In this document: one piece after another, positions 7,308 through 60,987 of the stretch | Position numbering within the stretch: position 1 is the first letter of the stretch | Layout: every line of letters starts with the position of its first letter | NCBI RefSeq assembly: GCF_000218685.1 | Contig: NW_006763290.1 | Coordinates: 3,994,908 to 4,058,907 of the forward strand | Direction of reading: 5' to 3' | From: Serpula lacrymans var. lacrymans S7.9 | Taxonomy: Eukaryota; Basidiomycota; Agaricomycetes; Boletales; Serpulaceae | Length of the DNA stretch: 64,000 nt | Notes under the pieces: generated by a model | What the model saw: the letters and a program-made list of their open reading frames with translations, nothing else | Told to the model about the DNA's origin: nothing | Databases searched by the model: none | Made by a program: the position numbers and the translations under genes

Positions 7308-7627
7308 TGTTAGTTTTGGTGATTCTGCACCTTTGTGCTACCTATATATTTTCATTCCTTTCTCTATCTATTCTTCTATTATTCACTATTGATTGTGTTC
7401 TCTATTATTTTGCCTTTGTGGCTGCTTTGTTTACCTTTGTTTACAAAACTTCGGACAGTACTGCAGAGTCCAATGCTTCCTATTCTCTAGTTACTCACAT
7501 TGGACTCTAGGTACTGTATACCTGTCATACTCTCTAATAATAAAGTTACTCACATTGGACTCTAGTTCCAGTCCCTGATTGCTCTCAGCAAGTGGCTAGA
7601 CACTTCCTTCAAGCTTTGTTCTTAATA
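7308..7627 (+). repeat. Solo LTR, family LTR2 (320 bp)
   Basis: Begins TGTTAGTTTTGGTG and ends GTTCTTAATA. A perfect target duplication GAACA flanks it (7303-7307 and 7628-7632). A second copy of the same length lies at 39237-39556 with its own perfect duplication, and a diverged copy lies in 50848-51418. Inside there is a repeated TTACTCA(C/T)ATTGGACTCTAG unit. TG...TA ends are shared with LTR1, which suggests a Copia origin, but no internal region is present. Confidence 0.85.
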
Positions 7628-8069: not shown

Positions 8070-8460
8070 TATAACAACCAAGAGTTTGCTACTCCGGTGC
8101 ACAACTCAGACAAGCTATAGAGATGATGATGAGGGAGTGGCTACCCTTTAGGCTCCAACAAGTTAGTTGTGAGGATATAACAGGAGGACTCGCTGAGGAG
8201 TCTCCTGGATCTATTCAGGTATATATACTAATACAGAGTGTTTGTACTTATTTACTGTACAGTTGATAAAAGCAGTGGCTGATGATGTCAGAGGGCACAG
8301 CCCGTGTAACCAGCTCCACTGCGTGAGAGACTTGTAGCTAAAATAGAAGGTGGAGTTTGAGTAAAATGGAAAGTGCCGCATGGCACAATGTGTGAAAACT
8401 ACAGTATAAAGTTAAAGAGGAGAATGAAAATTAAAGGTTCAAAAATTGTGTATCGTAACA
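8070..8460 (-). repeat. Solo LTR, family LTR3
   Basis: On its own strand the LTR starts TGTTACGATACACAA and ends with a TTGGTTGTTA variant. Flanks are TATAC (8065-8069) and TATTC (8461-8465), a 4/5 target duplication. It contains the family's near-palindrome GGAGACTCCTCAGCGAGTCC and a TATATATA motif, likely the promoter. No internal region is attached. Confidence 0.82.
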
Positions 8461-14414: not shown

Positions 14415-14751
14415 TAGACCAATACACAATTTTTGGGCCTTTAAATTTCATTCTCCACTTTAACTTTCTTTTGTAGTTTTCACACACTGTGCCATGCAGC
14501 ACTTTCCATTTTGTTCAAACTCCACTTTCTCGTGCTGCACTGCTTTCCTTTATTCTTAGATACAAGCCTCTCACGCAGTGGAACTGGTCACACAGGCTGT
14601 GCCCCAATAGATCAAGGAGACTCCTCAGCAAGTCCTCCTGTTGTTTACCCACAACTAACTCGGTCCTATCTTGAGGGGTAACCACTCCCACTCAATTCAC
14701 TACTGCTTGTCTGAGTTGTGCGCCAGAGTATACAAACTCTTGGTTGTTACA
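14415..14751 (+). repeat. Solo LTR, family LTR3 (diverged)
   Basis: Matches LTR3 from ACACAATTTTTGGGCCTTT to CTCTTGGTTGTTACA. The first bases have drifted, with TAGACCAATACAC where the family has TGTTACGATACAC. No clean target duplication is visible. It is shorter than the full 410-416 bp, with an internal deletion. Confidence 0.75.
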
Positions 14752-17823: not shown

Positions 17824-20718
17824 TTAGAACCACTTTAAAACAACATCGAGAGAAATACTGTCATTACAATCTATAAACTTGATGGCTACTTTAGTCATGC
17901 TCATGCCATTTTTCCACTGCTTCCCATTTCTAAGGTCTGCACCATCACTACCAATATATTCCAGGTGGGTATAAAACCATTGTTTAGCAGCTGATGACCA
18001 GAAGCCAATATTCAGTCCACTGGACAGATATGCAGAATGCCTGGGCCACCATGAAGAGAAAGATACCTGAGGGCCTTGTCCAGTATAAGTGTTGTAAACT
18101 CCACAAATAAGGTTGAGCTCTTCCTGAGAGAGGCAGTCATTGATAAAGATACAACCATCAATGGTCTCATCAACTTGCTTCAGTTCTTTGGGGTCACTCA
18201 ATGGCCCCAACAAAACTATATCTGGGCACAGAGTGTCAATTGATAAACACCATTTAACACCACCCTGCATCAATGCCGCACAACCACATGGGCCTTTAAG
18301 GAGTTTATTGTGCACTTCCTGGTAGCATGTGTAGTCAATGTTGTCTGGCTTGTAACCCTCATGACGGTATCTAGGGTAATGCTTTGTGGAGGAACGGATG
18401 GGGGAGCAACCTTGACTTTGAGAAGGGTCTTGAAAGGCATCCCTCTAGATGCGAGTTTCAATACTATGTCCTTGATTTTAGGCCCAAAGCTTTGTCATAC
18501 ACACTCTAGTACAGTTGATACTTGACTCACAAAAACACCCCACCCAGGCACTGAGGCTGTATCACAAGGTGGGAGCAAGAAGTTCACTTTCTCAAAACCT
18601 GATTTGTCCTTGAAGCGGATAGGATCAACAATAAATAGAAGGTCATGGGCTTGCATGTGTTTGGGGCAAGATGGAACCATGTCCCAAATAGGCGGCAGGA
18701 CATTTTGTGCTTTCTGATATTGGGGGCAAGATAGGAATGTGGATGTAAAATAACGCGCAGCTTCGACCCAGCTTGGAGTTTTGTCTGGAGATATATCTCC
18801 GAAGATATGTTTCACCTCAGATCACTGAATGAGAAGCGCTCTGTAGGGAGGAAGCTGTATCTGTACTGAAGGGTATCAGACACCTGTGGTAAATTGTGCT
18901 TCATATGGGTGATCTGACGTTCACAAGCGGATGATGATAAGTCTTTATAGACCGTGGTTATTACAACAACACAATTTTTGGACCTTTCCTTTATTTATTC
19001 TCCGCTTTAACCTTGTACTTTAGCCTTCACACATGGTGCCACACCGCACTTCCCCTTTTGTCAAAACTCCTCTTTCTCGCGCTGCATTGCCTTTCTTCTT
19101 ATTCACAACTCTCTCACACAGTGGAGCTGGCCATGCGGGCTAGGCCCCATGATATCATCAGCCACTGTCGCTATCAACTGTATAGTACACATGTACAAAC
19201 AACCCTGTAGTAGTATATATACCCCAATAGATCCAGGAGACTCCTCAGCGAGTCCTCCTGTTGTATACCAACAAACTCTCTGCAGCCTAAGGGGTAACCA
19301 CTCCCTCTTCATTTTCTTTATAGTGTAGTTCTGTGTGCGCCAGAGTAACTAACTCTTGGTTGTTACAGTGGTCTTGGACTTGGCGCAGTATTCTGGCCAT
19401 ATCGGCCCTCTTTGGATGAAAAGTTGCAGGGTATCCAACAGTACACCTTTGTTTTTCTTCATGTACAATGGAAAATCACTGCGAATATCCCAGGAGTGCC
19501 AGAGACTATCATAGTATTTGTGTTGGTTAGGTATTTCCAACCAACGCCAATGGACAATGTTGAAGGGCATCCGCAGTCACACCCAGTACAATCCACAGTC
19601 ATATTCTCACGTCCATTTATAAATGTGACATTCTCTCATCTCTGGGACAGGAAAGCCTGCCAGTTTGTCATTTCTCATGAGACATTGCCAATGGCTATAT
19701 CTTGATTCATAAGCTTGTAAAACAGCATTCCCTTCATCCCTTCTGGAGAAAAAATCTATTCAATGTTCTCTAGGTCTCTGACCACTTCCCTTCTCTAGTT
19801 GAAATAGAAGTGGTCCAGGTGCAGATCCAATGTATGCATACTCATCCTCAAATTCCATCCTTGTCTCCATTTCCAGCTGTTCCTTCATGAGCATATCCTG
19901 TTTCATCTGCTTCTTGTTTGAAATTGCATCTAGCACTTGGGACTCCGAGGGGAAATATTTTTTGAAGCAGGGCATTGGTGAATGAGTATAGAACTTTCCA
20001 TAGACCCCACAAAAAAGCTATACAGGAACACCCACATCAATTATAACTGATATTATATCAGTCCACAAACAGTGGTCACCAACACTGACAAACATCCCAG
20101 TGTGCTTGATGGACTTGGAGAAATTGCCTATAACAAAAGCCCCTAGTCCTTTGACCCACTTTGGATGAGCTCCACAAGAGCCCTGTAGCATACAAGCCCA
20201 TGGGGGGAATGGATTTTGCAAATTGCGACCTTTGCTCATCATAGCTAAAACAAATGAGCACAAGCCAAAAAGAGGCAGGAAAGCAAAGCAAGATTTCAGG
20301 ATGGCTCTGTGTGCATCCTCCTCCATCTTGTGTCCTCAAAAATAGCCGAAGGTATAGGGGTAAGGGAAGGCCTTGGCCTCTTGCTGTCAAGAGAACAAGT
20401 GATGTAGCCTATTCCATCCTCCAGTCTTAACCACAATGTGATTAAGTCCTTTTTGAGGTAGTACTGGCTATTCAAACATTGTAAAGGGATTTGGGCAGGA
20501 AGGGAGAGTTGACCGAGCAATGGCCCCTTGAAACCAACTTCATCTGGTGTGAATGCAATGTGGGGATAAATATCAGATGCCCAGCAGGGGACGAGTGTTT
20601 CACAAGTATGCATATAGTGTTCAAGTTTCTGTTCTTGAGGTGGGATGTATGGTAGAATATCTGAAGTAGGCAATGTATAAACACCTTGCTGCTCATCCAA
20701 ATGCACAGTGAATGCCAA
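17824..20718 (-). pseudogene. Orphan-family gene, paralogue B, split by a solo LTR
   Basis: Paralogue of the gene at 8845-11885, in the opposite orientation and better preserved. It starts MAFTVHLDEQQGVYTLP at 20718 and ends at 17824. Blocks in order: IAFTPDEVGFKGPLLGQL; WACMLQGSCGAHPKWVKGLGAFVIGNFSKS; a charged helix with QLEKGSGQRPREH; LEIPNQHKYYDSLWHSWDIRSDFPLY; SWVEAARYFTSTF; and CLSQEELNLICGVYNTYTG to FWSSAAKQWFYTHLEYIG at the C-terminus. A solo LTR3 (18959-19367) with a perfect target duplication cuts it between blocks 4 and 5. No domain known; the product is unlikely to be made intact. Confidence 0.65.
18959..19367 (+). repeat. Solo LTR, family LTR3 (409 bp)
   Basis: Starts TATTACAACAACACAA (family TGTTACGATAACACAA) and ends TTGGTTGTTACA. 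Perfect target duplication GTGGT at 18954-18958 and 19368-19372. It interrupts orphan paralogue B. Confidence 0.88.
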
Positions 20719-23357: not shown

Positions 23358-23990
23358 CATCCCCTTAAACTGAACAGCAGTGGAAATGTCGAGTTTGAAC
23401 CGAGCAAGTGGCTTGATAAGCATGTTAGCAGGCATTTGATCAGTTGGACAGAAAGTCAGTGAAATGACTCCTTGATCAGCCACTTCTCAAATAAAGTGAA
23501 AACGGACATCTATATGCTTGGTTCTAGCATGGTAGACATTATTTTTTGATAACTCAATAGAGCTGTGGTTGTCGGAGTATAATATAGTGGGATGAGCCAG
23601 GTCTGTTGTGGTAATGTCTTTCCATATGGCCTCCTTGGTGGCATGCACTATGGCAATGTATTCAGCTTCGGTGGTTGAAAGAGCGACTATAGGCTGTGTT
23701 TTAGAGTTGCACGAAACAGCACCACCATAGGTACAGAAGTGTAGGCAGAGATTGAATGCCTGTGGTCGTGGGAAGCAAAATCAGCATCAGAGTGGCCAGT
23801 GAGTTTGTCTCAAATTTGACCAATGACTAAGCAAAAAAAATTTGTTGCCTTCAGATAGTGTAGAGCGTGCTTTGCCGCCTCCCAATGAGTAGTGTTGTGG
23901 TCTTGGAGAAAACAAGATAGCGAGGAGACTGCAAAAGAGATGTTGGGTCTAGTGCATATGGCAGGATACATAAAGGACCCGACAACTTCT

Positions 23991-24218
23991 TGTTAGAATA
24001 TACTCTGACATACCAATACTCCATAGGATAATACCTCTGATTTGTAAGCCAGCCCAGTATGCAGCAGCTATTCTGTGTAAAACGTCTGTGGTTGCATGTT
24101 ATGTTTAAGATCCTACATTGTATAACCTTGGCCATATAGCTCAATTGGTAGAGCAGCTGGCATGTATCCAGAAGGTTCCAGGTTCAATCCCTGGTCTGGT
24201 TATTATTTAATTTTATCA
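23991..24218 (+). mobile_element. LTR5: tRNA-carrying LTR-like element, copy 1 (228 bp)
   Basis: Starts TGTTAGAATATACTCTGACA and ends TTTAATTTTATCA. It is flanked by a perfect CTTCT duplication (23986-23990, 24219-24223). Removing it restores the Copia-2 RNase H/RT frame. TG...CA ends plus a 5 bp duplication fit an LTR, but neither a PBS nor a PPT is attached, so it is solo or a miniature element. It carries the tRNA-like sequence at 24130-24202. Two more copies occur at 30871-31098 and 31710-31937. Confidence 0.85.
24130..24202 (+). ncRNA. tRNA-like sequence in LTR5 copy 1
   Basis: 73 bases fold as a cloverleaf: acceptor GGCCATA with TCTGGTT, D-arm GCTC/GAGC, anticodon stem mostly paired, T-arm CCAGG/CCTGG. 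The A box TAGCTCAATTGG and B box GGTTCAATCCC are intact, and TTTT follows within 15 bp. Loop bases are CATGTAT: position 33 is A instead of the invariant T, and the last pair of the anticodon stem is G-A. So this is probably a tRNA-derived promoter or small RNA, not a working tRNA; by position the anticodon would be TGT. Confidence 0.7.
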
Positions 24219-24744
24219 CTTCTCTGTATGGCATGTTTTTCACTTTGTCGGTTTAACTAGCAGAAGATGGAGTTTGTGATTTGACCAGTAGTTTGCCAGG
24301 CTCCATAGGTGTTGTGGTTAGTTTGCAGTCGGACATATTGAAGCATGCAAGAATTGTGTCTATCAAAGCCTGTTGGCCAAGACTAATTGTACGAGTGTTT
24401 CTGTTTTGCAGGATTTCTATGCCCAGTAGCCAGTGTGCTTCACCAAGGTTGGTGATCTCATATTCATCCTTAAAGCCAGTTTTAAACTCTTGTATAGTCT
24501 CAATCTTTTTGCTGCAATTAGCATGTTGTCAACTGAGACTATAACAATGGTCCTGTCATTTTTGTGATGTCGAATAAAAAGAGTGTGGTCATTTTGTGAT
24601 CTGGTGAATCTGAGTCGTGTAAACATTTTGGTAAGTTTGTCATACCATTGTTTTCCTGCTAGTTTAAGACCATAGTCCTTTATTCAGTTTACAGACAAGG
24701 CCAGACTGTTCTTTTGTTAGGCAGTATGGTGGAGGATGCGTGTA

Positions 24745-26079
24745 CATCAGGAAAACATGATTTTGCTATAGTTGGCTATATTTGGTACTTTTAACAAATA
24801 TAGCAACTGTGGCAAAAAATAATGTATAAGTTGCTATAGAAGCGGTGGCCATGGTATTTATGACATTATATTTGCATCTAGTACCATCCAGAACAGATCA
24901 TAACAAATTAAAGCGGATAATGACATTAAGTGCTCCTAGAGTACAATAGAAATAGTAGTTGCTATTATATAGCAGTATATATACATTTGGTACCAATAAG
25001 AACTGATTAGAATGAATAATAATATTAAGTGACTTTGGAGTAAGATACATATAAATTTCAATCAAACTACAATTGCTTTACCTTATATGCATTATTACAT
25101 CAGTAACAATTTCATCCATTTACCTATCCATAACCCATCCATCCATCCTGCCATCCATCCATCCATCCACCACCCACCCATCCATCCAGCTAACCAGTCC
25201 ATCCAATTTATCTGTGCTTCAGTGGAGGGCAAACTTGGTCTCTGACCACTTCCCAAGGCATTTTAAACTCCGCTTCAATATGTCCAATATGCTCTGCCAT
25301 ATTGGAGCGGAGCTTGAAATATCTGCAGAGCACTCTACACTGTCTACAACAGTGTGGAAGGCTCTTCAAGGTTGTGGTGTACAATGGGCAGGCTGTAAAA
25401 AGGCGGGATTGTGCTGCCAGAACAATCCCTCCCCCCGACTACCCCGCTCATTGTGTTGCATGACCTCCAAGTGTGGGAAAAATAAATATCATTGGCTGGA
25501 TGATGACTTCAAATTCAGAGAAGTTTTAAGTACCTATACAATTTTTCTAAACTAATATAACTTCATCAAGATAGCTTTAAATTTTAAAAGCCTTCAACGC
25601 TGTCTACAATGTCTCAAAGGTTGGTGCTAGTGTGGAATTTTTTATCTGGTAAGTTATGTTTCTTTATACACAATTTATTTGTTTCTGATTTTTTAGTAAT
25701 GTATTCAAGCTTTACATTTGAGTAGTTGTACATTTCAATATACTATACTTGTTACTTTGTACATTAAATCTATAGTATAATGATTATAATATACTCTGTA
25801 TCTGTTTCAGAGTGAAATAAAGCTTATTAGAGCAACTAAAGCACAGTCATTTTGGGTTTTGACACTGTGCTTTAAATCAATCTAGATGCAAAAAGTACAC
25901 ACTAAATGCAAAATAGTATGATATAGTATGCTATAGTACAAGCAACTGTCTACTAGTTGTACTAATTGATATGAACCGATATGAACTGATATGGCTAATA
26001 TATTTGCTATAATAGCAAAAATTATGAACTAGTGTGTACTTATTAGCATTACTTATAGTAAAACCATGTTTTCCTGATG
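24745..26079. mobile_element. TIR transposon A (1335 bp) inside Copia-2
   Basis: Ends are CATCAGGAAAACATG and its reverse complement CATGTTTTCCTGATG, extended inverted repeats of about 28 bp. A TA dinucleotide flanks it on both sides (24743-24744, 26080-26081), and removing it with one TA restores the Copia-2 RT frame. The first 11 bases match the ends of elements B and B' in the Helitron (56341, 59147). No transposase is seen inside, so it is non-autonomous. Inside lie a CCAT microsatellite and two ~60 bp imperfect direct repeats near 24885-25045. Confidence 0.85.
25109..25207 (+). repeat. (CCAT)n microsatellite
   Basis: Interrupted CCAT/CCATCCATCCATCC units with degenerate CACCCACC and CCAGCTAACCAGTCC variants. 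It lies inside TIR transposon A and gives a Ser/Pro/His-rich frame that should not be taken for a protein. Confidence 0.8.
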
Positions 26080-27932
26080 TATATATTTTTGTCAACTTGT
26101 GTATTAAGGTGAGCACTTTTAATGACAATCTGATGGATTTTGACATTTTGATGTGCTGCATATGCCAGAACAAGACAATTTGTTGTCATCCGAGATACAG
26201 CTGAATATGTTTCAGTGTAGTTGACACCTTATTGTTGGCCATTTCCATTTGCTACCAGCCTAACTTTGAATTTCAAGAATTCATTGTTGGGTCCACACTT
26301 GATTTGAGGCACAAAATGACATTGAATAAGGTTTCCGTTTGGTGGTGGCTTGACCAGTTCCCACATGCGTAAGGTCTCAATTTGTTTCAGTTCATCATTT
26401 ATAGTGTCTAACCATTGCTTCCTGTGGGGGCCCTTTGAACACTTTGCTCATGGTCAGCGTGTTATATTTGGGAGTCGCTATGGTGCGTGTTATATTTGGG
26501 AGTCGCTATGGTGCGTGTATCTGCAGTTTGGGCGCTGAGGTAAGTCCCGTTGACCTCACTATAGCCGCTGTTGTCATCTGATTTGTATTTGCCAGTTATA
26601 GCCGTGACTGTTGCTGCAGTGACACATCCTTCATGTAGAGCTCTATAGAAGCCTGCAGGCTTCAGCTCTACACATTTAGGATGTGGTTGAAGGTCTTGCT
26701 TGGGTTCTCCTGGTAGGATTGGGTCCTTTGGAGGCTCAAGAGGTGGCTGGTTGACATTTTGAGGTGGATCAACAGCAATGGGTTTGAGAGGAATTGGATG
26801 AGGTTTGAGTGGAGGTGTGACTAGGTGGTGTACAAACACGAGGTAAGTCCAGCACATTTATTGCTGTGTCCAGCAAGTTGTGCAGTTTGCTAATATTGTT
26901 TGTTGCAGTATCATCAGGATCAAAAAAGAACTGGTAGTCAATGTTGTCTATATGGGCTGTAGTGAGTTGTTCTTCTGGATTAAAAATGTCATCTTGTTCG
27001 ACCGTTAAAGTGCGTCTGTCTGGCCAGTAAACTCTATAAGCCTTGGACTGACCATCATATCCTACCCATTTCCCTAGTTTAGCACATGGGTCTAATTTCC
27101 CTGCACCTATGGTTTTCACATACACTGTGCATCCAAATTCATGTATATCATGTAGGTCTGGTTTTACGCTATGTAGAATTTTGTATGGTGTTTTGCCACC
27201 TAGTGCTCTGGTAGGTGCTTGGTTCTTGATCCAGACCGCATGTTTTAATGCTCCACTCCAGAGGAATTTAGGCAATCCGGCCCCAATTATCATTGTGTGG
27301 GCACACTCAACAAGAGTGCAGTTTAAGCGTTCTGCGACACTGTTTTGCTGGGGTGAGTCATGTGTGGTGAGTTCTCTCACTGTGCCTTGTTTTGCAAGAT
27401 GTTCATCATACTTTGCACTCATATATTCTCCCCCGCAATTAGATCTTAGAACCTTTATTCTGGTGCCGTCTTTTTGGGTATGTAACCATGCATCGTAGTT
27501 CTTATAGATGGCCAGGACTTCATCTTTTGTTGCGAGAAACTAGACATGCATTTCACAGGAATAGTCATCCGTGAACGTCAGCATGTACTTTTTTCCTTTA
27601 AAGCCTTGTACCGTTGCAGGTCCCCAAAGGTCCGAGTGAGTCCTTTCATTATAAGTTTTTGCCCTGGTATTGCTTGCTTTTGGAAAAGGCTTTCTGACTG
27701 CTTTAGCGCATACACAGATTTCACAGAAGATGATCTTTTTGGCCTCATCTATGGTTATGCCCCCAGCTAAACCTGATTTAATAAGGTGTTTGAGCAAATT
27801 GTGGGCAATATGACCTATACAACAGTGAAGATCATTTATGGACATTATTACAGTGAGGTGGGCAGATCTTTGTATGTGATCTGATTTGAGTATGTGATAA
27901 AGGCAATATAAGTCAGTAAAATCACTTGGCAA
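26080..27932 (-). pseudogene. Copia-2 integrase and RT N-terminal part
   Basis: 27540-27932 holds the GAG-pre-integrase zinc region (CEICVCAKAVRKPFPKAS) and the first catalytic Asp in HSDLWGPATVQG. The next part (26769-27422) continues with TTHDSPQQNSVAERLNCTLVECAHTM, which carries the catalytic Glu, then WSGALKHAVWIKNQAPTRALGGKTPY. The RT begins further down, ending in KSAHLNTQVDKNIY next to transposon A. Gag and protease upstream are absent. A 26 bp tandem duplication (GCGTGTTATATTTGGGAGTC...) lies at about 26457-26510. Confidence 0.8.
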
Positions 27933-28209
27933 GATGTTGTAAACATATGGTAGTGCCTTTCAAACCCCCCTTAATCTGCTAGAGGTTGAAATTAGGATCT
28001 TTGACTATATTGTCACTGGATCCTTGGCAGCCTGAGGTGGGTCTGGGATAATTTTATCTTGGCTGGCATTCTCATTGAACACTTTTTTCACAATATAAAG
28101 AGATGTGTTATTACTAGATGAATAGACTGAGCACTGAGAAACTAGATTTTTAAGTAGTAGTAATCCATAAACTTACTATATGTGTGCCTTGAAATGTCCA
28201 ATAATTGTA

Positions 28210-30300
28210 TTATTGTCTGCATGGCACTGTGCTTGGAAGAACTGTAGATAGCACTATGAATAACAGACACTCATGAAAGGTTGGTTTACTTACATCCTGC
28301 ACACATTTGGTAACATGTATTGCACCAAGTGACACATCTTCATTGACTATACCACTACACATTGTGATGGCTGCTTGAAAACCATACAGCAGTCTGCCCA
28401 GGGCTCTTGCAGAGCATAACATCTTGCTCTGACTCGAGGATTTGTTGCCATGTGTCAGGGTAGGCTGCTTTGAACACAGTGTAACACTATTTTTGTACTT
28501 CCACATTATCTATTACTGATATTAGCTTCAAATGAATATTATTGTTATGCTTTTATCTCACCAGTAACACCTTCTGAAAGGCCCACACTAGGGACACGCT
28601 TAAGTTCCTCAGTAGTGTCAACAGAAAAATACCTTGTATATATATTCCAAAAGTTGTATTTAACATTGGTGGGGCCCTTGGCCTTGTTCTATAAAGTAAG
28701 GGGTCTGGTGGTTGGTTGTCACAGGATATCCTTACAAGCTATCCAGAGTGGTCAATACTGCTAGCCTCAGGTGGTTGCACTGGCGGAAAAAGTTTGTCAG
28801 CAAGCTTTTGTGCAGGGTTGGGTGGTGTCGTTGGATTTGATAACAGTGTTTGAGTTGGTAAAACATTACATTTGATGTCAGGATATAGCCTTTTACTGGT
28901 CCATCTGCACAGTGTTTTGAGGGGTTGGGGGAATTATGTCAGTTTTTAGGATAGCTTGCACATTAAGAAGGTGGAAGTTAAGAGCAGGGGAGACAGAAGG
29001 CCAGAAAGACATTGACACAGCAAATGGAGGTCCAGGACCTACAAAGGGAGACTGTGGAGGCTCAAGGGAACCCCTACCCCAATAGGGTGTTCAAAAAGCA
29101 TCTAAAAATATGTTATCAGCTGTTCAGAATACTCTGGTGTGAGTGAGCCTACCTGCATATGCTACATTGGAGCCTCCAGGAGCACTGTGAGGATGCATCT
29201 CAACCTTTTGCATTCCTTCCTATGGCACATTGTAACCTCTTGGAGTGTCTGGAAAAATCCATAGTCCGGCTTAATTATGGCCTTGATGAGGCTGGCCTGA
29301 ACCTTGCACGTGGTGGGCTGAATACTGGCCGGCTGGTGTAGGCAGATATATATGCAATTGTTGCATGGGAAATGAAAGGGGAGGAGAGGGGTGTAGTGCA
29401 GACAGTTATTGAGGCTGGTGGAAATCATATGTGCAAATATGAGCTGATGGCAACTGTGTGTATGTGACAAAATATTCTGGTGGGGCTCCAGCTGGCTCAT
29501 CTGGGAGCAGTGCATGGCATGCCTACATATAACACTCAATCCCACTGTCACAATTAGTTGGCTTAATGTGTGTAGCTGTTGTGTTGGGGTAGGAATATCC
29601 AATTTATTTCCTCCGCCTACCTGTTCGAGAGGAATGGTGTGTTCTGAATCTTAGAGGTTAGTTAGCAGTGAGGACACCTTTGCATCTCTACAATTTACAG
29701 GCATACTTTGCTGAAATAGTATATCAGTGTTAATTAATAAAACAAAGATGTCCAACTTGCTTTGAAGGGCAATTTGGTATGGGCCAGATAGACCTAAAAT
29801 CATGGGGATATTTGAGTTTCTGCATAAGTAGGGGACTGAGTAAACAAAGATGGGGACAGGAGGGGACAAAGGTTCAGATGTACTATCTTTCTTCTTAAGA
29901 ATGAAAAAATACAGATACCCTAAAAGAGACATATTAAGATTCCCTTGTAATAGGAGTTAAGGTCTCAGCAATACTCGTAATACAATTCTTATTTACTGTA
30001 TTTAAATGCTGTAAAAGGCATCTCTATGTTGATATCTGGTGCCAATAGACTACAATGGGCAACAAACATGCCTAAAAAAAGAGAAAATAAAACCAATGAA
30101 GATCTCAATGTGACTAAAATCAACAAGATAAAGATGAGAGTGTGACACTTTTGGACATTAATCAGAAAATATACTTATTTCTTTGCTTGCTCTCCTCCAG
30201 TATATTTCCACCACTGGATCTGGCCATCCTTCAACTCCAAGAGGTTAGTCTGGGGGGGATTTTTTGATACCTTGAGTGGGAGCTTGATGTAAATCTAGTT
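28210..30300 (-). pseudogene. Orphan gene remnants, Pro/Gln-rich
   Basis: Several minus-strand open segments that never join. 28210-28506 reads SKMLCSARALGRLLYGFQAAITMCSGIVNEDVSLGAIHVTKCVQDVSKPTFHECLLFIV, a pattern like other Agaricomycete orphan genes. 29162-29602 and the stretch near 28800-29060 are Pro-, Gln- and Tyr-rich, like the low-complexity half of such proteins. Stops and frame changes are frequent. I do not recognise a domain. Confidence 0.35.
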
Positions 30301-30870
30301 GTGTTGATACTGACAGGAAGGTTTCTGAGTTGCAGGCCTGCCCCTGGCCTCAGCGGTGCTATCAAGATTAAGACGGGGTAGTGGGAATGCTTCCAAGACT
30401 GTTTAAATTGGTAATATGTTCTTTATGGAAAAATATAGGCCTCAATACGACAGATATGGATTTCTTGAGATGAGCCTTGGGCCAGGTTTTTTGAACTTCT
30501 GCCATAAAAGACCTAAAAACTCAATGACATTTGACCTAGAATGGTAAACCTCATATAATGGCACATTACACATAGCAAAGCCATAATATAGTGTGACTAT
30601 CAAAAGGTCAAGCACAGATAAACAACACAAGAAGATGACATATAAAGCAACACATTTATTGTACATTACCAAGTACTAACAATTTTCAGGCACCAGTGTC
30701 TTATCATTTGTTGCTTCCAAGGCATCACCAGCATGGCTAAGCTCATGGAAATTTGCAGCTTAATGCATATCTGCGAACTCGAGTGTATGAGTTTTGAGGG
30801 ATCCATCATGAGGCTTAAGGGACTATGCTGATCCTTCTCTATGAGAAAGCTTGTGGTGTTGTGCTGATCC

Positions 30871-31098
30871 TATTAGAATATACTCTGACATACCAATACT
30901 CCATAGGATAATACCTCTGATTTGTAAGCCAGCCCAGTATGCAGCAGCTATTCTGTGTAAGACGTCTGTGGTTGCATGTCATGTTTAAGGTCCTACATTG
31001 TATAATCTTGGCCATATAGCTCAATTGGTAGAGCAGCTGGCATGTATCCAGAAGGTTCCAGGTTCAATCCCTGGTCTGGTCATTATCCAATTTTATCC
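30871..31098 (+). mobile_element. LTR5 tRNA-carrying element, copy 2
   Basis: Same 228 bp as copy 1, but both ends have drifted (TATTAG... and ...TTTTATCC), and no perfect duplication is visible. A GATCA near each edge may be a degraded one. It lies in the last part of the Plavaka 1 coding region, facing copy 3 in inverted orientation. The tRNA-like part is 31010-31082. Confidence 0.8.
31010..31082 (+). ncRNA. tRNA-like sequence in LTR5 copy 2
   Basis: Differs from copy 1 only at the 3' end of the acceptor (TCTGGTC, which pairs better). A and B boxes are identical, the anticodon loop again reads CATGTAT, and TTTT follows. Confidence 0.7.
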
Positions 31099-31709
31099 AA
31101 ATGATCTTTGGGCCAGTTAGAAGGGGTACTATGTGTGCCATATAAAGTTGTAGATAGCTTAAAGATCACTCTGAGACGTCCAAATTCTTGTGCCTGGTAC
31201 AATTTTTAAACAGATAGTAGATAAAGCTTTATATTATAGAACTTACCTGTCAAACCTGTTGATTCACAGTCATTGGAGTTTATTACTATAATAGTATCAA
31301 ACCTAGGATGCTGTCCACCAACACTTGAGGGTTTTGCCTTTACAGCATCCATTTGGTCATCAAACAAGTCCACATTGTTTCCAAGAGTCTAAAAGGAGAA
31401 TTTGAATAAGTGGAAAATATCAAGGTTTCGAAATGGAAGAGGATAAGATCTTGTTTGTACTCTGGAATGGGGCTGCTGTAATTTTTAATTAAGATAGATT
31501 TTTAGTACGTCCTCAAAGCCTGGGCAAGAGCACTTTTCCATGACAGATATAAGTGATTGCTGGGATTTGCTTGGATTCTTTGCAATAATGATATGATGAT
31601 CCTGAGACTTGGCACAAAGGAAAACATCTTTATCGTCTTTTTCCATGCTCATTTTAAGATAACTCTCAAAAGCAATTATTTTTTCCCTATGCAGCAGCCA
31701 GGTAATCAT

Positions 31710-31937
31710 TGATAAAATTGGATAATGACCAGACCAGGGATTGAACCTGGAACCTTCTGGATACATGCCAGCTGCTCTACCAATTGAGCTATATGGCCAA
31801 GGTTATACAATGTAGGATCTTAAACATAACATGCAACCACAGACGTTTTACACAGAATAGCTGCTGCATACTGGGCTGGCTTACAAATCAGAGGTATTAT
31901 CCTATGGAGTATTGGTATGTCAGAGTATATTCTAACA
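31710..31937 (-). mobile_element. LTR5 tRNA-carrying element, copy 3 (228 bp)
   Basis: Inverted relative to copies 1 and 2. Perfect ATCAT duplication at 31705-31709 and 31938-31942. Removing it restores the Plavaka 1 reading ...NEAPQMI/TWLLHREKI.... Length equals copy 1 exactly. The sequence is almost identical to copy 1, which suggests recent activity. Confidence 0.88.
31726..31798 (-). ncRNA. tRNA-like sequence in LTR5 copy 3
   Basis: Minus-strand counterpart of the other two, with identical A and B boxes and CATGTAT loop. The acceptor ends TCTGGTC A. A TTTT run follows near the element end. Confidence 0.7.
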
Positions 31938-32056
31938 ATCATTTGAGGAGCTTCATTCCTCTTATTGGACCTCCATCTATCTTTAGCAAAGTCTATATGA
32001 AATCTTTCAAACATCTCCATATTGTAGTTGTTGGTGGTGCCAAACCATGTGATAAA

Positions 32057-32384: not shown

Positions 32385-32798
32385 TGTAGCAACCAAGAGT
32401 TAGTTACTCTGGTGCACAACTAGAACAAACTATAGAGGTAGTGATGAGGGAGTGATTACCCCTTAGGTAGGACCGTGTTAGTTGTGGGTAAACAACAGGA
32501 GGACTCGCTGAGGAGTCTCCTGGATCTATTGAGGTATATATACTACTACAGGTTGTTTGTACATGTTGTACTATACAGTTGATAAAGCAGTGGCTGATGA
32601 TGTCAGAGGGCACAGTCTGTGTGACCAGCTCCACTGCATGAGAGACTTGTAGCTAAAACAAGGAAAAAGGCAGTGCAGCACGAGAAAGAGGAGTTTGAAC
32701 AAAAAGGAAAGTGCTGCATGGCACAAGGTGTGAAAACTACAGTATAAAGTTAGTGAGGAGAATGAAAATTAAAGGTCCAAAAATTGTGTATCGTAACA
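32385..32798 (-). repeat. Solo LTR, family LTR3 (414 bp)
   Basis: On its own strand it starts TGTTACGATACACAA and ends TTGGTTGCTACA. Perfect target duplication GGTAT (32380-32384, 32799-32803). It splits Plavaka 1 after DHFNIP, 37 bp from the LTR1 insertion. Confidence 0.9.
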
Positions 32799-37856: not shown

Positions 37857-40150
37857 ATGCTTCCCTGGTTGGACAAGTCTCATCTTTCTACTGGCACTGA
37901 TACACTTCAAGATTCTGGTTCTGAATCAATCAACCTACCCAATACCAGCCTTCCAAAAAAAACCATTATGGCTTCCAAGCAAAGCAATCAAGGGAAATCC
38001 AGAGCAACAAGACGACAAACCCAACAACCTCAAGACCTGGCACCAGCTTCTGAGCCCCATCGCCCTTGTCCTAGGGGTGGTATTACTTTTGCACTGCAGC
38101 GTCAGGGTGGCGAAGGTACATGGTGACAATGAAGTAGTCCCTGGATCAACGCAAGCAAGGATGTCAGTGCCATCATTGCCACTCTTTCATCCGCTTGTTG
38201 GGGCTCTGACACGCACAACCTTGGCTCCTAAACGTCAAGTCTGCAATCCAGGAGGGAGCATATCTCAATGAATCACTTATGTCAGTTGTTGCCCGTTGCA
38301 AGGGACTTAGTGGCAAGGACATAGCAGTCAACTTTCTTCTGATGGTTAACCTTATGCAGCTTGTCACAAAATGTCAAAGGTAAGTACACTTGTCTTTCTC
38401 TCATATTCAATATCCTTCGCTCATATCTCAAATTGTAGTACCAAAATACAAACAGGTCTCTCTCTCAATAGAATATACAATCAAGAAATTACACATCTGT
38501 CCAATAAACCCAGCAAAAGGGCATTCTAAGACTGGCATTTCACTGGAAGCAAGTTTGCAGCCCTTGCTGGTGGAGGCTCCATATATTTATTAGTACTTCT
38601 TGCCGGCTGGGTCTTTGTGTTTCAGTTGCTGCCATGGAGGGCACTTCACCATGGGACCTTGCCAATTTGCTAAGAATGCCAAAGAAAAGAATTGAAGATA
38701 GTCGCCTTTTATACACCTCTGACAAGCTTTAAAAAGAGACTATCGAGGGAAATTTAATTATCGACCAAACCATTTCTACTATCAGTTGCATGCACCTCTC
38801 TTTGCCCATTAGCATGGCATTAATGTTCTCCCTGGCTATACTTGCGGAGCATCAGCTAGCCAATGAATTTGGTTGCACAAATATCAGCTCTACAGACTGT
38901 TTTTTTGATTCTGTTATCTTCAAGTGCGTGCTATAGTTTTTAGCTTTATTGAAGTTTAATAGGATATCCTTGCTAATGACAATATACCTAGTAACTTTGT
39001 TTTACTTAAGTGTGACTGTGTCGCCTGGCAGTCTTGCTACACTTCCACTATTTGCACTGGTAATCCAGCTATCCCTCTGCACTAACTGGGTTACAACATG
39101 CTTGCACCACTGGAACACTCATTTCTGAGTAGGCCATACAGTCCCCTATCAACTGAAATCAATGAGGAAAAGGACTGTCCTCTTCCCAACTCCTATCCAT
39201 CTTGCTTTCTCAGCGAGAAAAACATCACCACCATCCTATTAAGAACAAAGCTTGAAGGAAGTGTCTAGCCACTTGCTGAGAGCAATCAGGGACTGGAACT
39301 AGAGTCCAATGTGAGTAACTTTATTATTAGAGAGTATGACAGGTATACAGTACCTAGAGTCCAATGTGAGTAACTAGAGAATAGGAAGCATTGGACTCTG
39401 CAGTACTGTCCGAAGTTTTGTAAACAAAGGTAAACAAAGCAGCCACAAAGGCAAAATAATAGAGAACACAATCAATAGTGGATAATAGAAGAATAGATAG
39501 AGAAAGGAATGAAAATATATAGGTAGCACAAAGGTGCAGAATCACCAAAACTAACACATCCCTACATCATATAATCATTCTTTGGCTGCAAACAAAGTCT
39601 TTCAGGAAGAACACGGTCGCAATGCCAATGTCCTGTGGACTGAGAAGGAAAGGGAACAAGCAGTGAGGGGCCATGTAGCAACAGACACTAATGACTTGCA
39701 AACACAGGTATGTGGCTACACATTGGGAGCCTTATCCGATCATTTACCTGAGTTATTGCTAGCTTCAGTCTCTGTATCAAAATGATGTAAAGGCTACATG
39801 TGAGACATACCTGAGGATCCCAGCAAACATCATTTTGGGGTAAGTTCATTGTACACTATTCTAATAATCACTCTATCCACAAGATTGAGCTCCAGCTGCC
39901 TGAGGAGTATGAGCTATTGGCTGAAGTTGCGTCGATTTTGCCTGGCAACAATTCGTCTCCAATATTCCCCTTCCTTTCACTGGTGATTAACCTCAATGTC
40001 TCTATCAGAGGTCATTGAGATAGCAAAGACAAGGACTTCTGTCTTATCCTTCCTATTGGTAATATCTAAGGTGAAGCCCTACACACAAAACAAATTGTTG
40101 TCGAGAATTTGCACATTTTGCATTACAAAAACTAACAGCCATTATTGACC
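37857..40150 (+). pseudogene. Orphan-family gene with possible 2-oxoglutarate/Fe(II) dioxygenase end
   Basis: The start (37857) is a disordered, basic MASKQSNQGKSRATRRQTQQ-type N-terminus. Then 38215-38380 reads IQEGAYLNESLMSVVARCKGLSGKDIAVNFLLMVNLMQLVTKCQR; 38570-38930 has AMEGTSPWDLANLLRMPKK and related blocks. After a solo LTR2 the frame goes on (39575-39715), and at 39890-40060 it reads LVINLNVSIRGH*DSKDKDFCLILPIGN. In the relatives I know of, this is GHRDxKDK with an HxD, as in double-stranded beta-helix dioxygenases; here the residue between H and D is a TGA (40016-40018). The second half with the other His is missing. Dioxygenase assignment is an inference from one motif. Confidence 0.4.
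39237..39556 (-). repeat. Solo LTR, family LTR2 (320 bp)
   Basis: On its own strand starts TGTTAGTTTTGGTG and ends GTTCTTAATA, with a perfect CATCC duplication (39232-39236, 39557-39561). It has the same length as the copy at 7308 and is almost identical to it. Confidence 0.9.
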
Positions 40151-44586: not shown

Positions 44587-45002
44587 TGTTACGATAACAC
44601 AATTTTTGGGCCTTCCCTTTATTTTCATTCTCCACTTTAACCTTGTACTTTAGCTTTCACACATGGTGCCACGCGGCACTTCCCCTTTTATCCAAACTCC
44701 TCTTTCTCACGCCGCGTTGCCTTTCTTCTTATTATAGACACAACTCTCTCACACAGTGGAGCTGGCCATGCGGGCTAGGCCCCATGATATCATCAGCCAC
44801 TGTCTTTATCAACTGTATAGTACACATGTACAAATAACCCTGTGGTAGTATATATACCCCAATAGATCCAGGAGACTCCTCAGCGAGTCCTCCTGTTGTT
44901 AACCAACAAACTCTCTGCAGCCTAAGGGGTAACCACTCCCTCATCATCTTCCTTATAGTGTGTTTCTGTGTGCACCAGAGTAACTAACTCTTGGTTGTTA
45001 CA
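44587..45002 (+). repeat. Solo LTR, family LTR3 (416 bp)
   Basis: Starts TGTTACGATAACACAA and ends TTGGTTGTTACA, with a perfect TGAAC duplication (44582-44586, 45003-45007). Both the TATA-like TAGTATATATACC and the near-palindrome GGAGACTCCTCAGCGAGTCC are present. It splits the orphan gene just before its MNYVNYE block. Confidence 0.92.
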
Positions 45003-50847: not shown

Positions 50848-51418
50848 TGTTAGTTTAAGGTGATCTCTAATAAATGTAATGTAACATACCTCAGCCGCTG
50901 CCCAAGAGGCTATAGAAACGACTGAGGTATTCCTATACTAAACCCCCTACTACTTATAGTTGGAGGTGCTACTCGCTACAGTATAATGACTCCTAGGAGA
51001 ACAATGGTTACTCCATGGAGTGGTGGCTATGCTCCATGGAGAACAATGGCTGCTTTGGCAGAGACCGGGTTTATCCGGTTTTGTCATTAGTTTTGGTGAT
51101 TCTGCACCTAGTTGTGCTATCTATTTTCCCTTCTTTCTAAATCACTTTCTTCTTTATTCTTTTTGCTCTATTGTTCAGTATTCACTGAGCATTCTATTAT
51201 TTCGCCTTTGTGGCTGATTTGCTTACCTTTGTTTACAAAACTTCGGACTAGTATTGCAGAGTCCAGTATTCCTATTCTTTAGTTACTCATACTGGACTCT
51301 AGGTACTGTACACATTCTGTACTCTCTGATAATAAAGTTACTCATCCTGGACTCTAGTTCTGTCCCTGTTAGCTCTCAGAAAGTGGCTAGACACTTCCCA
51401 GAAGTTCTCAATTGAACA
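50848..51418 (+). repeat. Nested solo LTRs: LTR1 inside a diverged LTR2
   Basis: A perfect TGAAA duplication (50843-50847, 51419-51423) flanks the whole. The outer LTR2 starts TGTTAGT at 50848, resumes at 51087 and ends TTGAACA. The inner LTR1, on the minus strand, ends with TTTTGTCA (51086) on the plus strand. TTAGT occurs on both sides of LTR1, so it entered LTR2 seven bases from its end. About 36 bp of the inner LTR1 end are missing, which a deletion between two TGTTAGT copies explains. Confidence 0.82.
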
Positions 51419-56340: not shown

Positions 56341-57136
56341 CATCAGGAAAAACCCTTTTTCTATATAGTGCTATATAGCCACCACCTATATATATAAACA
56401 CATTCATAGAAACTATAGTACTATCAGTGCAGTCATAGCTCTTATAGCTCTTATAGCACAGTAGTAGGCAATTTTAACCAAGGGGAGAAGTATCTATAAT
56501 TCCCTCAAACTCTGGATTAATCTAATAAACTTGTTCAATAATAGAAAGAGGCCAGAAGTGTTTGGAGTTAAGTATATTGTTATAGGCAAGGCACTATAAG
56601 TGCTTTTATAGCCTATAGCAGCCTACATAGCTCCTATAGCTGTAAAGGTCATAGTTATAATATAGTTCAAGGTGCTTAAAAGGGCTAATAAATTATCCAG
56701 TATTAACTAATTATGTAGCCTGTATTAGTGAAATAGTAGTTTGTATCCCTGATACTCACAAAATAAGAATAATGATTTATCCAGATATAAGTAGTGACAA
56801 TGAGTAAAAAAATAATCTAAGTCCATGAAAGGTCAATATATAACATGTGTATAATACATTTTATAAGCTCTCATGGTGTAGTGGATAAATGTGATGTGTG
56901 GCTATAGGTTGCTTAGTCACTCAAGAGCTGCTAGCAGGTTGAGAGTTCAAATTCTGTCTGTGTTAATTTTTTATATCAGCCACACAACAATTTCCAACAT
57001 CTATAAGAGCATTTATAGAGCTATATGAGGCTCTATAGATGGCAGAGGTTCTATAACAGGTTTGACCACTATAACAGCTTTATAAGTACTTATAGTGCTA
57101 TAGAGCTCTATATAGCTACCCCCATTTTTCCTGATG
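56341..57136. mobile_element. TIR transposon B (796 bp) inside the Helitron helicase
   Basis: Ends are CATCAGGAAAAACCC and its partner (...GGGGGTAGC to CCATTTTTCCTGATG). A 2 bp duplication, CA on the gene strand, flanks it (56339-56340, 57137-57138), and excision restores SVTQVGLDF. No protein is encoded. Subterminal parts are packed with AGCTCTATAGC-like units, probable transposase-binding sites. It carries a tRNA-like box pair at 56867-56965. Identical in length and sequence, as far as I compared, to element B' in the opposite orientation. Confidence 0.88.
56867..56965 (+). ncRNA. tRNA-like Pol III boxes in element B
   Basis: A-box-like TGGTGTAGTGG (56874-56884) and B-box-like GAGTTCAAATTC (about 56943-56954), some 60 bp apart, then a TTTTTT run. 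The spacing would fit a tRNA with a long variable arm or intron (Leu/Ser type). Acceptor and T-stem pairing are poor, so it is a tRNA relic at best. Whether it is transcribed is unknown. Confidence 0.45.
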
Positions 57137-57948
57137 TGTGTCACTGATTGCCCTTGAGACTTGTTGATGGTCATGGCAAAGGCAACATGGATAGGGAATT
57201 GACAACGTGATAGCTTGATGGGCAATTCTTCTGATGAAGGTTCCAATGTGAGGTGTGGAATAAAAGCTATCTTTCCTGCATGTTTTCCTCCTAAGACACG
57301 GCACTTCAATACTCTTCTCTTCATGTTTATCAAAATCATGCGTGTTCCATTACAGAGTCCATTTAGGGGATCAATGTTGCGGAGGAGCATAAGTGGATAT
57401 CCAGCTTTAAGTTTGAGGTGCGCTTCAGGAAGGCCAGATACCTGCAAGGAGTTCAAGAATTCCACAGAATAATATTTATGCCCCTCTCCAACCACTTTAT
57501 CAATTGACAGAGCCACTAACTCTTCTCCAGGGAATTTTGTGAGGATTGCTGAATTAAAGTCACTAACTGCATCATTTTTTGCAGAGAGGATAGTGCGGTG
57601 GAGGAAATCATGGTCATTTTTGTCTCTATTTGCAATTCCAGGATAGGTAGTGTCGACTAATGAGTCTATGGTGTTTTCTGGCATAAGCACGTTGGCAGGA
57701 AGCTCAATAGTTCCATCTCCTGCAATTCCGCAACCACCACCAACATCCAGGAGCCAGCTAGCAAAGGCTTCACTTTCTGGAGTACGGTCCAGGCGCATGT
57801 TCTGTGTGAGATAGCAGACATAGATATTTGTCCATGGTTGTGACCTTCTAAAAGAGGCAGAAATGATGTGTTGCCTTGACCCTCTTGGAACAACAGGTGT
57901 TGTTTGGCGGAAGTCCCCTCCAAAGACCATTGTAATACCTCCAAATAG

Positions 57949-58092
57949 AAGCTGATCACCCAAAATGTCCTGCATTGTGTGATCCAATGTGTCAATCCCA
58001 TGACGGTGTTGCATTGGTGGAAGCTGATCACCCAAAATATCCAGCATTGTGTGATCCAATGCGTCAATCTCATGACGGTGTTACATTGGTGC
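57949..58092 (-). repeat. 72 bp tandem duplication in the helicase
   Basis: The unit AAGCTGATCACCCAAAAT... occurs at 57949 and again at 58021, with about 8 differences. It adds 24 codons in frame (LDHTMxDILGDQL twice) just after helicase motif II. The premature stop lies at its upstream edge. Confidence 0.85.
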
Positions 58093-59146
58093 TTCATCCC
58101 AGACTATAACTCCAATATGTCTCAATACCTCATAGAGGTCAGAGTTTTTTGGAATCCTGCATGTGGATGTTTCATGTACAGGAATAGGGATTTCAAAGCG
58201 TAAATAAGCTGTGCAGCCACTCTCCAAGAGCAGAGATGAAATCCCAGAGGATGCTACACATAGAGCAACATTATGATTATCCCTTACTCGAACAGCGGCT
58301 GCAATTGTATTACAGAGATATGTTTTGCCCCCACCTCCAGCACTGTGGATAAATAAAGTAGTTCCCTTATTATGGTGGATTGACTGCATCATGGTATCAA
58401 AAGCATTCTGCTGCTCTTGATTGAGCCTCTCTACATTATCTTCAACCTCCAAAGTAAGATCAAATCTGTCATGGTTTTGCTGCTCGTGGAAAAGATTGTT
58501 TGCAATGATAGGCTCCCATTGTTGCTGAGGAAAAGGCATTGGTGGGAAGATTGTAAGACATTTGTTGGATTGAGTAAGTATGGATTCCAGCAAGAATAGC
58601 CTATAATCATAAATCTGGTCTTCTGAAGGTTGGGCTATCCCTCTTTGAAGAAGGCAATGGTGTAAATCATCACAAATCTTGTATTTGTGCTGGTTCCAAA
58701 GGTTTGCAGGCTCATTTGGGAGACATTGCAGTAAGGTAACTGCAAAGAGAACATGGAGTTCAGGGCCTGTCTGCATATTTCCTGCTTCTGCCAAACACTG
58801 ATTCCATTCACCATCGTCTTCTAACTGGCCACGTGCAGCACATGCAGCTTTGTAAGTTGGATGTAAAACCCCATTAAATGTGCGCAAATCTTCCCAACTC
58901 TCTGCTCCAGGGATCACAGTGAGCAGTGTACGGAGGTAGAAGTGCTCCCCTTGGCTTGGATGGACAAACAACATTCTCCCTATAGCAAATCATTGTTTTC
59001 TTGGAGTCCATTTTTTGGCACCTTTGTTCCAGACAAAGTATTGAGGATAAGGTATGTGACAACCTTCAGGGTGATCTTTATTAGCAGTGAACCATTCTGT
59101 GAGTTGAGTCTTTGATGTACTGTCATTATTGATTATATTCTCTGCA

Positions 59147-59942
59147 CATCAGGAAAAATGGGGGTAGCTATATAGAGCTCTATAGCACTATAAGTACTCA
59201 TAGAGCTGTTATAGTGGTCAAACCTGTTATAGAACCTCTGCCATCTATAGAGCCTCATATAGCTCTATAAATGCTCTTATAGATGTTGGAAATTGTTGTG
59301 TGGCTGATATAAAAAATTAACACAGACAGAATTTGAACTCTCAACCTGCTAGCAGCTCTTGAGTGACTAAGCAACCTATAGCCACACATCACATTTATCC
59401 ACTACACCATGAGAGCTTATAAAATGTATTATACACATGTTATATATTGACCTTTCATGGACTTAGATTATTTTTTTACTCATTGTCACTACTTATATCT
59501 GGATAAATCATTATTCTTATTTTGTGAGTATCAGGGATACAAACTACTATTTCACTAATACAGGCTACATAATTAGTTAATACTGGATAATTTATTAGCC
59601 CTTTTAAGCACCTTGAACTATATTATAACTATGACCTTTACAGCTATAGGAGCTATGTAGGCTGCTATAGGCTATAAAAGCACTTATAGTGCCTTGCCTA
59701 TAACAATATACTTAACTCCAAACACTTCTGGCCTTTTTCTATTATTGAACAAGTTTATTAGATTAATCCAGAGTTTGAGGGAATTATAGATACTTCTCCC
59801 CTTGGTTAAAATTGCCTACTACTGTGCTATAAGAGCTATAAGAGCTATGACTGCACTGATAGTACTATAGTTTCTATGAATGTGTTTATATATATAGGTG
59901 GTGGCTATATAGCACTATATAGAAAAAGGGTTTTTCCTGATG
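59147..59942. mobile_element. TIR transposon B' (796 bp), inverted copy of B
   Basis: Same length as B, with flanking CA dinucleotides (59145-59146, 59943-59944). It sits in the spacer of the Rep-helicase gene between the Tyr motif region and the helicase. It begins CATCAGGAAAAATGGGGGTAGC and ends GGGTTTTTCCTGATG. The pair B/B' forms an inverted repeat with about 2 kb between copies. Confidence 0.88.
59318..59416 (-). ncRNA. tRNA-like Pol III boxes in element B'
   Basis: Inverted copy of the feature at 56867-56965, with the same A- and B-box-like motifs and A-run (T6 on the minus strand). Confidence 0.45.
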
Positions 59943-60371
59943 CATCATCATGGGCATTGAAGAATACAGTTTGCTGATCCTTTAATTGAATGGGAAGGCG
60001 CAATACCGTTGGTTTTTCTTCATGCATAGGGAACTCCAAAAGATGTCAGCATGCTTCCACAGGACCAATATAGCGACCATCAATATATTCCTGAATCTCA
60101 TCCCTCGGCTACCTTGCATCTCCATGCACAATTCCTACATCTGCACCTTGTTCTCCCACCACAACTGAAGCTCAATTATGGCCCTTGTAAATATATTTAT
60201 GAATATATTTGACGGCTTTAACAGATGAACAGATTTCAACATTGATGTGACAGTCATATCTGGCAGAGAGATATGCATTGTAAGGGACAACATCACGGTT
60301 ATTAAAAACATGACCACTTGAAGCTGTATAAGTCCTCCCATTGTCAGGCCTTGCATATTCTGGATAACCAT

Positions 60372-60787
60372 TGTTACGATACACAATTTTTGGACCTTTA
60401 ATTTTCATTCTCCTCTTCAACTTTCTTTTGTAGTTTTCACACACTGTGCCATACGGCACTTTCCATCTTTGTTCAAACTCCACCTTCTCGCACTGCACTA
60501 CTTTTTTCTTATTTTTAGCTACAAATCTCTCACGCAGTGGAGCTGGTCACACGGGCTATGCCCCATGACATCATCAGCCACTGCCTCCATCAACTGTATA
60601 GTACATGTGTACAAACAACACTGTAGTAGTATATAAACCTCAATAGATCCAGGAGACTCCTCAGTGAGTCCTCCTGTTGTTTACCCACAACTAACTTGGT
60701 CCTATCTTAAGGGGTAACCACTCCCTCTTATTACTCTTCTTGCTTGTCTGAGTTGTGCGCCAGAGTAACTAACTGTTGGTTGTAACA
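60372..60787 (+). repeat. Solo LTR, family LTR3 (416 bp)
   Basis: Starts TGTTACGATACACAA and ends TTGGTTGTAACA. Target duplication ACCAT/ACCAC (4/5). Splits the Helitron Rep between GDGG and GYPEYARPDN. Confidence 0.88.
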
Positions 60788-60987
60788 ACCACCATCACCA
60801 AATCTGGTTTCAGCACAAAACTCTTTGCGATAGCGTTTTGAGCATGCTCTATTCTTCATGCACCGGGCTCCAGGGTGCTCAGGTCCACATGGACCGTGCA
60901 TCATACACTTTGTGACCGTTGAATATAACTTTGGTTGTGTGACAGGATCAGGAATTTGAGCAGAGACAACAGAGTCAACCTGGGTGG

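Follow-up and report, generated by a model that had tools for sequence, protein, structure and literature searches.

How does a non-coding element that carries a tRNA-like sequence move through a fungal genome? The question is raised by a 64,000-nucleotide stretch of Serpula lacrymans var. lacrymans S7.9 DNA (contig NW_006763290.1, positions 3,994,908 to 4,058,907), here called the window. The window holds three copies of a 228-bp unit, LTR_A. We conclude that LTR_A is the long terminal repeat (LTR) of a terminal-repeat retrotransposon in miniature (TRIM) of the Helenus type. Judging from hybrid insertions, the coding retrotransposon that moves this TRIM is most likely Copia-B, an element with an unrelated LTR, LTR_B. 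Our favoured reading, in which we have good confidence, is that Copia-B mobilises the TRIM and that the hybrids derive from cDNAs made together in one particle.

The initial annotation of this DNA had placed three 228-bp copies in the window and their coordinates were correct. The copies and their parts are as follows, read from the sequence, with any further source in brackets.

23991..24218, + strand: LTR_A copy 1, a solo LTR of 228 bp with TG..CA ends and target-site duplication (TSD) CTTCT
23986..23990: 5' TSD of copy 1, CTTCT
24219..24223: 3' TSD of copy 1, CTTCT
24130..24202, + strand: tRNA-like sequence of copy 1, Thr-TGT, with A at position 33 (ARAGORN; RF00005, 50.2 bits)
24137..24148, + strand: box A region of copy 1, TAGCTCAATTGG
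24181..24191, + strand: box B of copy 1, GGTTCAATCCC
24211..24214, + strand: TTTT of copy 1, a possible RNA polymerase III (Pol III) terminator at the LTR end
30871..31098, + strand: LTR_A copy 2, with altered ends TA..CC and no TSD
31010..31082, + strand: tRNA-like sequence of copy 2 (ARAGORN)
31710..31937, - strand: LTR_A copy 3, a solo LTR with TSD ATCAT
31705..31709: TSD of copy 3, ATCAT
31938..31942: TSD of copy 3, ATCAT
31726..31798, - strand: tRNA-like sequence of copy 3 (ARAGORN)

Identity to copy 1 is 98.7% for copy 3 (over 228 bp) and 96.9% for copy 2 (over 225 bp). The LTR hallmarks claimed for the unit hold for copies 1 and 3, which have TG..CA ends and TSDs. They do not hold for copy 2, which begins TATTAG, ends TATCC and lacks a TSD.

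We searched the genome (42.6 Mb in 29 contigs) with the first 24 bases of LTR_A, allowing up to three mismatches. This start occurs at 141 places, 73 on the plus and 68 on the minus strand. The reversed 24-base pattern, used as a control, occurs at none. Hence, LTR_A is far more abundant than expected by chance. We examined 59 distinct copies; these are the best-matching copies rather than a random sample, and are probably biased towards young ones. Both ends are present in 51. Sorted by hand, 35 of the 51 have their own perfect 5-bp TSD, eight are LTRs of multi-LTR elements and another eight have no TSD. Two 5-mers drawn at random from the window are identical with a frequency of 0.0013. Where one of the 59 copies departs from the majority base (196 changes), the change is C>T or G>A in 125 cases, which suggests cytosine deamination.

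A whole TRIM was found at locus L025. It consists of LTR_A, 110 bp and LTR_A (566 bp in all), is flanked by the TSD CAATA and has LTRs that differ at 7 of 228 sites. It is of the form that the initial annotation proposed to look for, a full copy with an internal region, primer-binding site (PBS) and polypurine tract (PPT). In a second copy, L020, the 3' LTR is cut off after 54 bp. The internal region is short and non-coding, with the PBS GGTTATGAGCCCTG at its start and a GGAGGGAG tract, the PPT, at its end. The PBS is the exact reverse complement (14/14 nt) of part of CAGGGCTCATAACCCTGAGGTC. The latter is present at two host places and we take it to be the anticodon arm of initiator tRNA-Met. 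Self-priming by the tRNA-like part of the LTR was considered and rejected; its longest complementarity to the PBS is only 5 nt.

A short, dispersed unit with Pol III boxes could also be a tRNA-derived short interspersed nuclear element (SINE). Such an element has a 5' tRNA head, a variable 3' tail, long variable TSDs and no LTR pair, and none of these features was found in the LTR_A copies. Instead, the ends are fixed at TG..CA, the TSDs are 5 bp and the tRNA-like part is close to the 3' end. Two-LTR copies with a PBS and PPT already refute a SINE, to which we give next to no credence. The initial call of an LTR element was therefore sound.

Copia-B has the same 14-nt PBS as the TRIM. At locus L031, its single open frame of 1410 residues contains the domains gag_2, Pol_BBD, gag_pre-integrs, rve, SH3 and RVT_2, and so gag, integrase and reverse transcriptase (RT) in Copia order. 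The presence of a protease is a guess, made from the Pol_BBD region. The longest frame at L032 is 1220 residues. Searching the genome with the RT gave 149 matches, of which 59, L031 itself included, span the whole query at 96–100% identity. Most Copia-B copies were placed by sequence pattern. The ordinary form, LTR_B/Copia/LTR_B, is represented by one copy seen at its outer ends only (C2:2363, TSD CTATC). An LTR_A query found no LTR_B match within the window at E values up to 1. Another Copia group, with an RT 44–47% identical, apparently shares the PBS, behind an LTR ending in GTTTTATTA; the two were matched up by eye from their positions.

If the second strand transfer passes between two molecules at a PBS that both share, the resulting unit should have unlike LTRs and a matching TSD. 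We took a census of the junctions at the PBS. Among 99 Copia-B PBS sites, 79 are behind an LTR_B end, 10 behind an LTR_A end and 10 behind neither. The TRIM PBS sites number 10: three are behind LTR_A and seven behind LTR_B or its diverged form. Four of these seven fit the LTR_B-end pattern. Diverged LTR_B was read through at L047 and L056, and at L103 it is deduced because an LTR_B start lies some 330 bases upstream. Two of the seven, C6:1601896 and C25:3235, also fit a looser LTR_A-end pattern; their sequence puts both with LTR_B. An eleventh, more diverged TRIM internal region (L110) is likewise behind an LTR_B-like end. Of 85 LTR_B/PBS sites, 2 are outside both the Copia-B and TRIM lists. 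In four LTR_A/Copia junctions LTR_A ends in AACA, not ATCA. Diverged LTR_B has the same AACA ending, which places the exchange at the edge of the PBS.

Five mixed-LTR insertions could be tested at both flanks and four have perfect 5-bp TSDs. Three of these are LTR_A/Copia/LTR_B hybrids (CATCC, GATAC and GTATC) and one is an LTR_B/TRIM/LTR_A hybrid (TAACT). The three Copia hybrids were seen at their ends and RT positions, not as whole bodies. The body of the GATAC hybrid is incomplete, its RT being about 2.3 kb too near the PBS. The C6:1602 insertion (L047) is a further candidate beyond the five. Of the other candidates, C1:1801 and C6:2528 have no LTR_A start at the expected place, and C2:1759 was read at its 5' flank only.

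Two compound insertions, L031 and L032, are 6.2 and 6.3 kb long. Both have LTR_A at each end and a matching TSD (TAAGG and AAAAA; 2/2). Their order is LTR_A, PBS, Copia, LTR_B, PBS, TRIM internal region and LTR_A, so that LTR_B is near the 3' end. The LTR_A ends, TSDs and intervening Copia frames could indicate that LTR_A belongs to a Copia family that is autonomous and has tRNA-bearing LTRs of its own, from which the TRIM arose by deletion. We gave up this explanation once the internal LTR_B was found. Both compounds also hold a second PBS and a TRIM internal region, and LTR_B precedes 79 of the 99 Copia-B PBS sites. Furthermore, the LTR_B/PBS junction reads TTATCA in one compound and TTAATA in the other, and 6 of 110 TRIM-internal bases differ between the two. 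Hence, they look like separate events, not one amplifying lineage, and an autonomous origin is very unlikely. Similarity of the outer LTRs was discarded as proof of a single event in each compound, other copies being equally close. It is possible that a Copia circle joined a resident TRIM by homologous recombination to form the compounds. More speculatively, and in our view improbably, compounds could be the step by which a tRNA-promoted TRIM captures a whole helper, giving a self-sufficient 6-kb Copia with tRNA-bearing LTRs.

Could the hybrids have formed after integration, by recombination of neighbouring or nested insertions? Products of recombination would lack TSDs. An LTR_B/TRIM/LTR_A insertion (flanks TGATT/ATATA) and the tripartite insertion C1:1897 (LTR_B, TRIM internal region, LTR_A, Copia and LTR_B; flanks ATAAC/CACAG) do lack them. 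These cases weigh against a cDNA origin of the hybrids. Other points also count against mobilisation by Copia-B as we describe it. Only a single TRIM with two whole LTRs was found against 141 LTR starts, the examined copies being mostly solo LTRs. One of the three TRIM PBS sites behind LTR_A, L109, is a rearranged locus with an LTR_A tail only. Since LTR_A finds no LTR_B, the identity of the helper rests on recombinants and the PBS. Recombination after integration has to account for perfect 5-bp TSDs in four of five mixed-LTR insertions, set against 0.0013 for random pairs. It would also need a substrate for an exchange that reaches from precisely the outer end of the LTR up to the PBS. None is obvious, because LTR_A finds no LTR_B and the unique flank has no homology. 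We therefore regard it as unlikely and favour hybrids made during reverse transcription. At L109 itself (C1:1020640-1020720), an LTR_A start with a preceding Copia-type purine tract is head-to-head with an inverted LTR_A tail and TRIM PBS, perhaps as a result of self-integration.

Briefly, the mechanism that we propose is this. Host initiator tRNA-Met would prime TRIM RNA, its anticodon arm pairing with the PBS. Copia-B proteins would package, copy and integrate the non-coding TRIM despite the unrelated LTR_B. With both cDNAs in one particle, plus-strand strong-stop DNA of one could pair at the PBS of the other. Strand transfer between the cDNAs would then give integrated LTR_A/Copia/LTR_B and LTR_B/TRIM/LTR_A, and further switches could give LTR_A/Copia/LTR_B/TRIM-internal/LTR_A compounds. 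That Copia-B proteins copy and integrate the TRIM is well supported by the recombinants; we infer co-packaging and the exact strand-transfer step. The tRNA-like part would serve as a promoter and not as a working tRNA. Pol III would start at the tRNA 5' end and stop at TTTT, to give an R region of about 85 nt.

Is the tRNA-like sequence suited to this role? Consistent with the initial description of a tRNA-like gene with intact boxes, ARAGORN identified tRNA-Thr(TGT) in each of the three window copies, and copy 1 scored 50.2 bits with Rfam model RF00005 (cut-off 29 bits). The A at base 33 and the TTTT just ahead of the element end were also as first described. Four LTRs of L031 and L032 scored 44.8–52.5 bits. 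Over the examined loci and the window, ARAGORN reported Thr(TGT) 95 times and Ile(TAT) once, with overlapping loci counted repeatedly. A functional tRNA gene would have U33 and a cloverleaf. Here, base 33 is A and the minimum-energy fold of the tRNA-like RNA is not a cloverleaf (z about -1.3), although ARAGORN and RF00005 accept the sequence. Hence, a working tRNA is unlikely. The fold is a further point against our reading, together with a null test for depletion of T-runs (1 observed, 1.24 expected from dinucleotide shuffles, P 0.65).

We compared rates of change along the 59 examined copies. The tRNA part had 0.0086 changes per site, the upstream part 0.0183 and the tail 0.0095; the tRNA window ranked 16th lowest among 156 windows. 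Boxes A and B together had 8 changes, compared with a mean of 19.8 in two random 11-mers (P 0.22). Faster decay of the boxes than of the rest of the unit, named beforehand as a refuting outcome, was not seen. The conservation test is, to its detriment, confounded by the way in which copies were chosen. Copies chosen by upstream similarity had 25 changes in 2161 tRNA positions, and copies chosen by tRNA similarity had 114 in 3819 upstream positions; the two selected sets may differ in age. The initial annotation considered selection on the Pol III promoter boxes likely. With this P value and the null T-run test, such selection is not demonstrated.

The tRNA-like part might instead be a dead passenger, with RNA polymerase II transcribing the TRIM from the upstream half of LTR_A. 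The A at loop base 33, the poor fold, the non-significant box conservation and the T-run result all fit this proposal. Conversely, copy 1 and the more diverged L047 and L056 all keep unbroken matches to boxes A and B, and a run of at least four T is retained in the tail of 57 of the 59 examined copies, with none elsewhere in the LTR (0/59). The main text of Kojima 2024 (PMC10886601) also describes A and B boxes as conserved across Helenus families. We consider a dead passenger doubtful, if deserving of some weight, and infer Pol III transcription from the tRNA-like sequence.

The genome has a second tRNA-like repeat. Among 63 scored RF00005 places (from 2018 candidates), 39 have an identical score of 51.0 bits and are presumably one family. 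By eye, none coincides with an LTR_A place among the first 100 of the 141 matches to the LTR_A start. One adjoins an LTR_A-like end at C1:1801. A decayed copy (L056:2455-2527, - strand, 41.7 bits) sits in an insertion of about 193–196 bp that lacks TG..CA ends and has a short duplication.

The window also contains LTR_B sequences, identified by alignment and, for the solo LTRs, from the sequence.

7308..7627, + strand: solo LTR_B, 320 bp, of the proposed helper Copia-B, TSD GAACA
39237..39556, - strand: solo LTR_B, 320 bp, of Copia-B, TSD GGATG
51087..51398, + strand: diverged relative of LTR_B, 80.6% identical

A roughly 200-bp repeat occurs at 8070-8270, 14602-14749, 19172-19365, 32387-32593, 44797-45000, 60589-60783 and 61264-61382. 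It has many relatives in the window and examined loci, one directly after an LTR_B/PBS junction at C1:1795. At 57013-62863 (- strand), frames resemble Helitron helicase and Rep-like pieces, as judged by eye.

How does this TRIM compare with known systems? Ty5 and Drosophila copia are primed by initiator tRNA-Met. We know of no tRNA in their LTRs. Like our TRIM, both use tRNA anticodon loop priming, according to the main text of Kojima 2024 (PMC10886601). The initial annotation expected a tRNA-carrying element in a fungus to be unusual. Such an element is not without precedent; TRIMs of this kind are named Helenus (TRIMp3) and the same text lists fungal families. It describes LTRs that carry a tRNA-like sequence with boxes A and B, a size of 311–1263 bp (566 bp here), 5-bp TSDs in fungi and common solo LTRs. 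In the commonest fungal type the PBS pairs with the initiator tRNA-Met anticodon loop, some fungal families have a Thr or His tRNA, and Copia is the proposed helper. All of these are shared with our element, as is a tRNA-like part that is not the primer. Serpula and Boletales are not in Table 1 of that paper and Serpula is not named in its main text. In a census of Boletales transposable elements, the TRIM count for S. lacrymans is 0 (PMC5689174, Table 4); hence, the LTR_A family was not classed as TRIM in that table.

The analogy with plant Cassandra, drawn in the initial annotation, is apt. Cassandra also has a small-RNA gene with a Pol III promoter within a TRIM LTR, judging from the main texts of PMC7215508 and PMC10886601. 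In contrast, its gene is 5S and not tRNA, it is found in plants and its transcripts have been reported. The main text of PMC10886601 knows of no Cassandra helper.

Template switching has precedents. Sabot and Schulman 2007 (PMC1950507) trace VejuL and BARE2 to switches from one RNA to a different one. They also describe complexes with an internal third LTR, matching TSDs and similar outer LTRs, as in our compounds, and explain them by switching between co-packaged templates. However, each of their four complexes stays inside a single family (Angela-like, Squiq, Opie), and their model has the switch at R. In the LTR_A case, a TRIM is joined at a shared PBS to a coding Copia whose LTR is unrelated.

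The tRNA-carrying kind of TRIM is thus already known and the new part is the probable helper, indicated by recombinants. Helpers of TRIMs with Pol III promoters have so far been inferred from similarity. For Helenus, the main text of Kojima 2024 (PMC10886601) uses similarity of PBS or internal region, and the words hybrid, chimer- and template switch do not occur in it. We met no report of Helenus/Copia hybrids in the literature searched, with subscription journals mostly outside its reach. The same main text considers a long LTR stretch shared by helper and TRIM unlikely because Pol III is weakly processive. That LTR_B is unrelated to LTR_A agrees with this expectation; the hybrids still put LTR_A on Copia bodies. 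Such insertions would be physical records of two cDNAs meeting in reverse transcription. With such records, a genome by itself can answer which element helps a TRIM: one looks for insertions with unlike LTRs that meet at a PBS common to both. The hybrids also suggest that parasite and helper are linked by having the same PBS and not by having LTRs in common.

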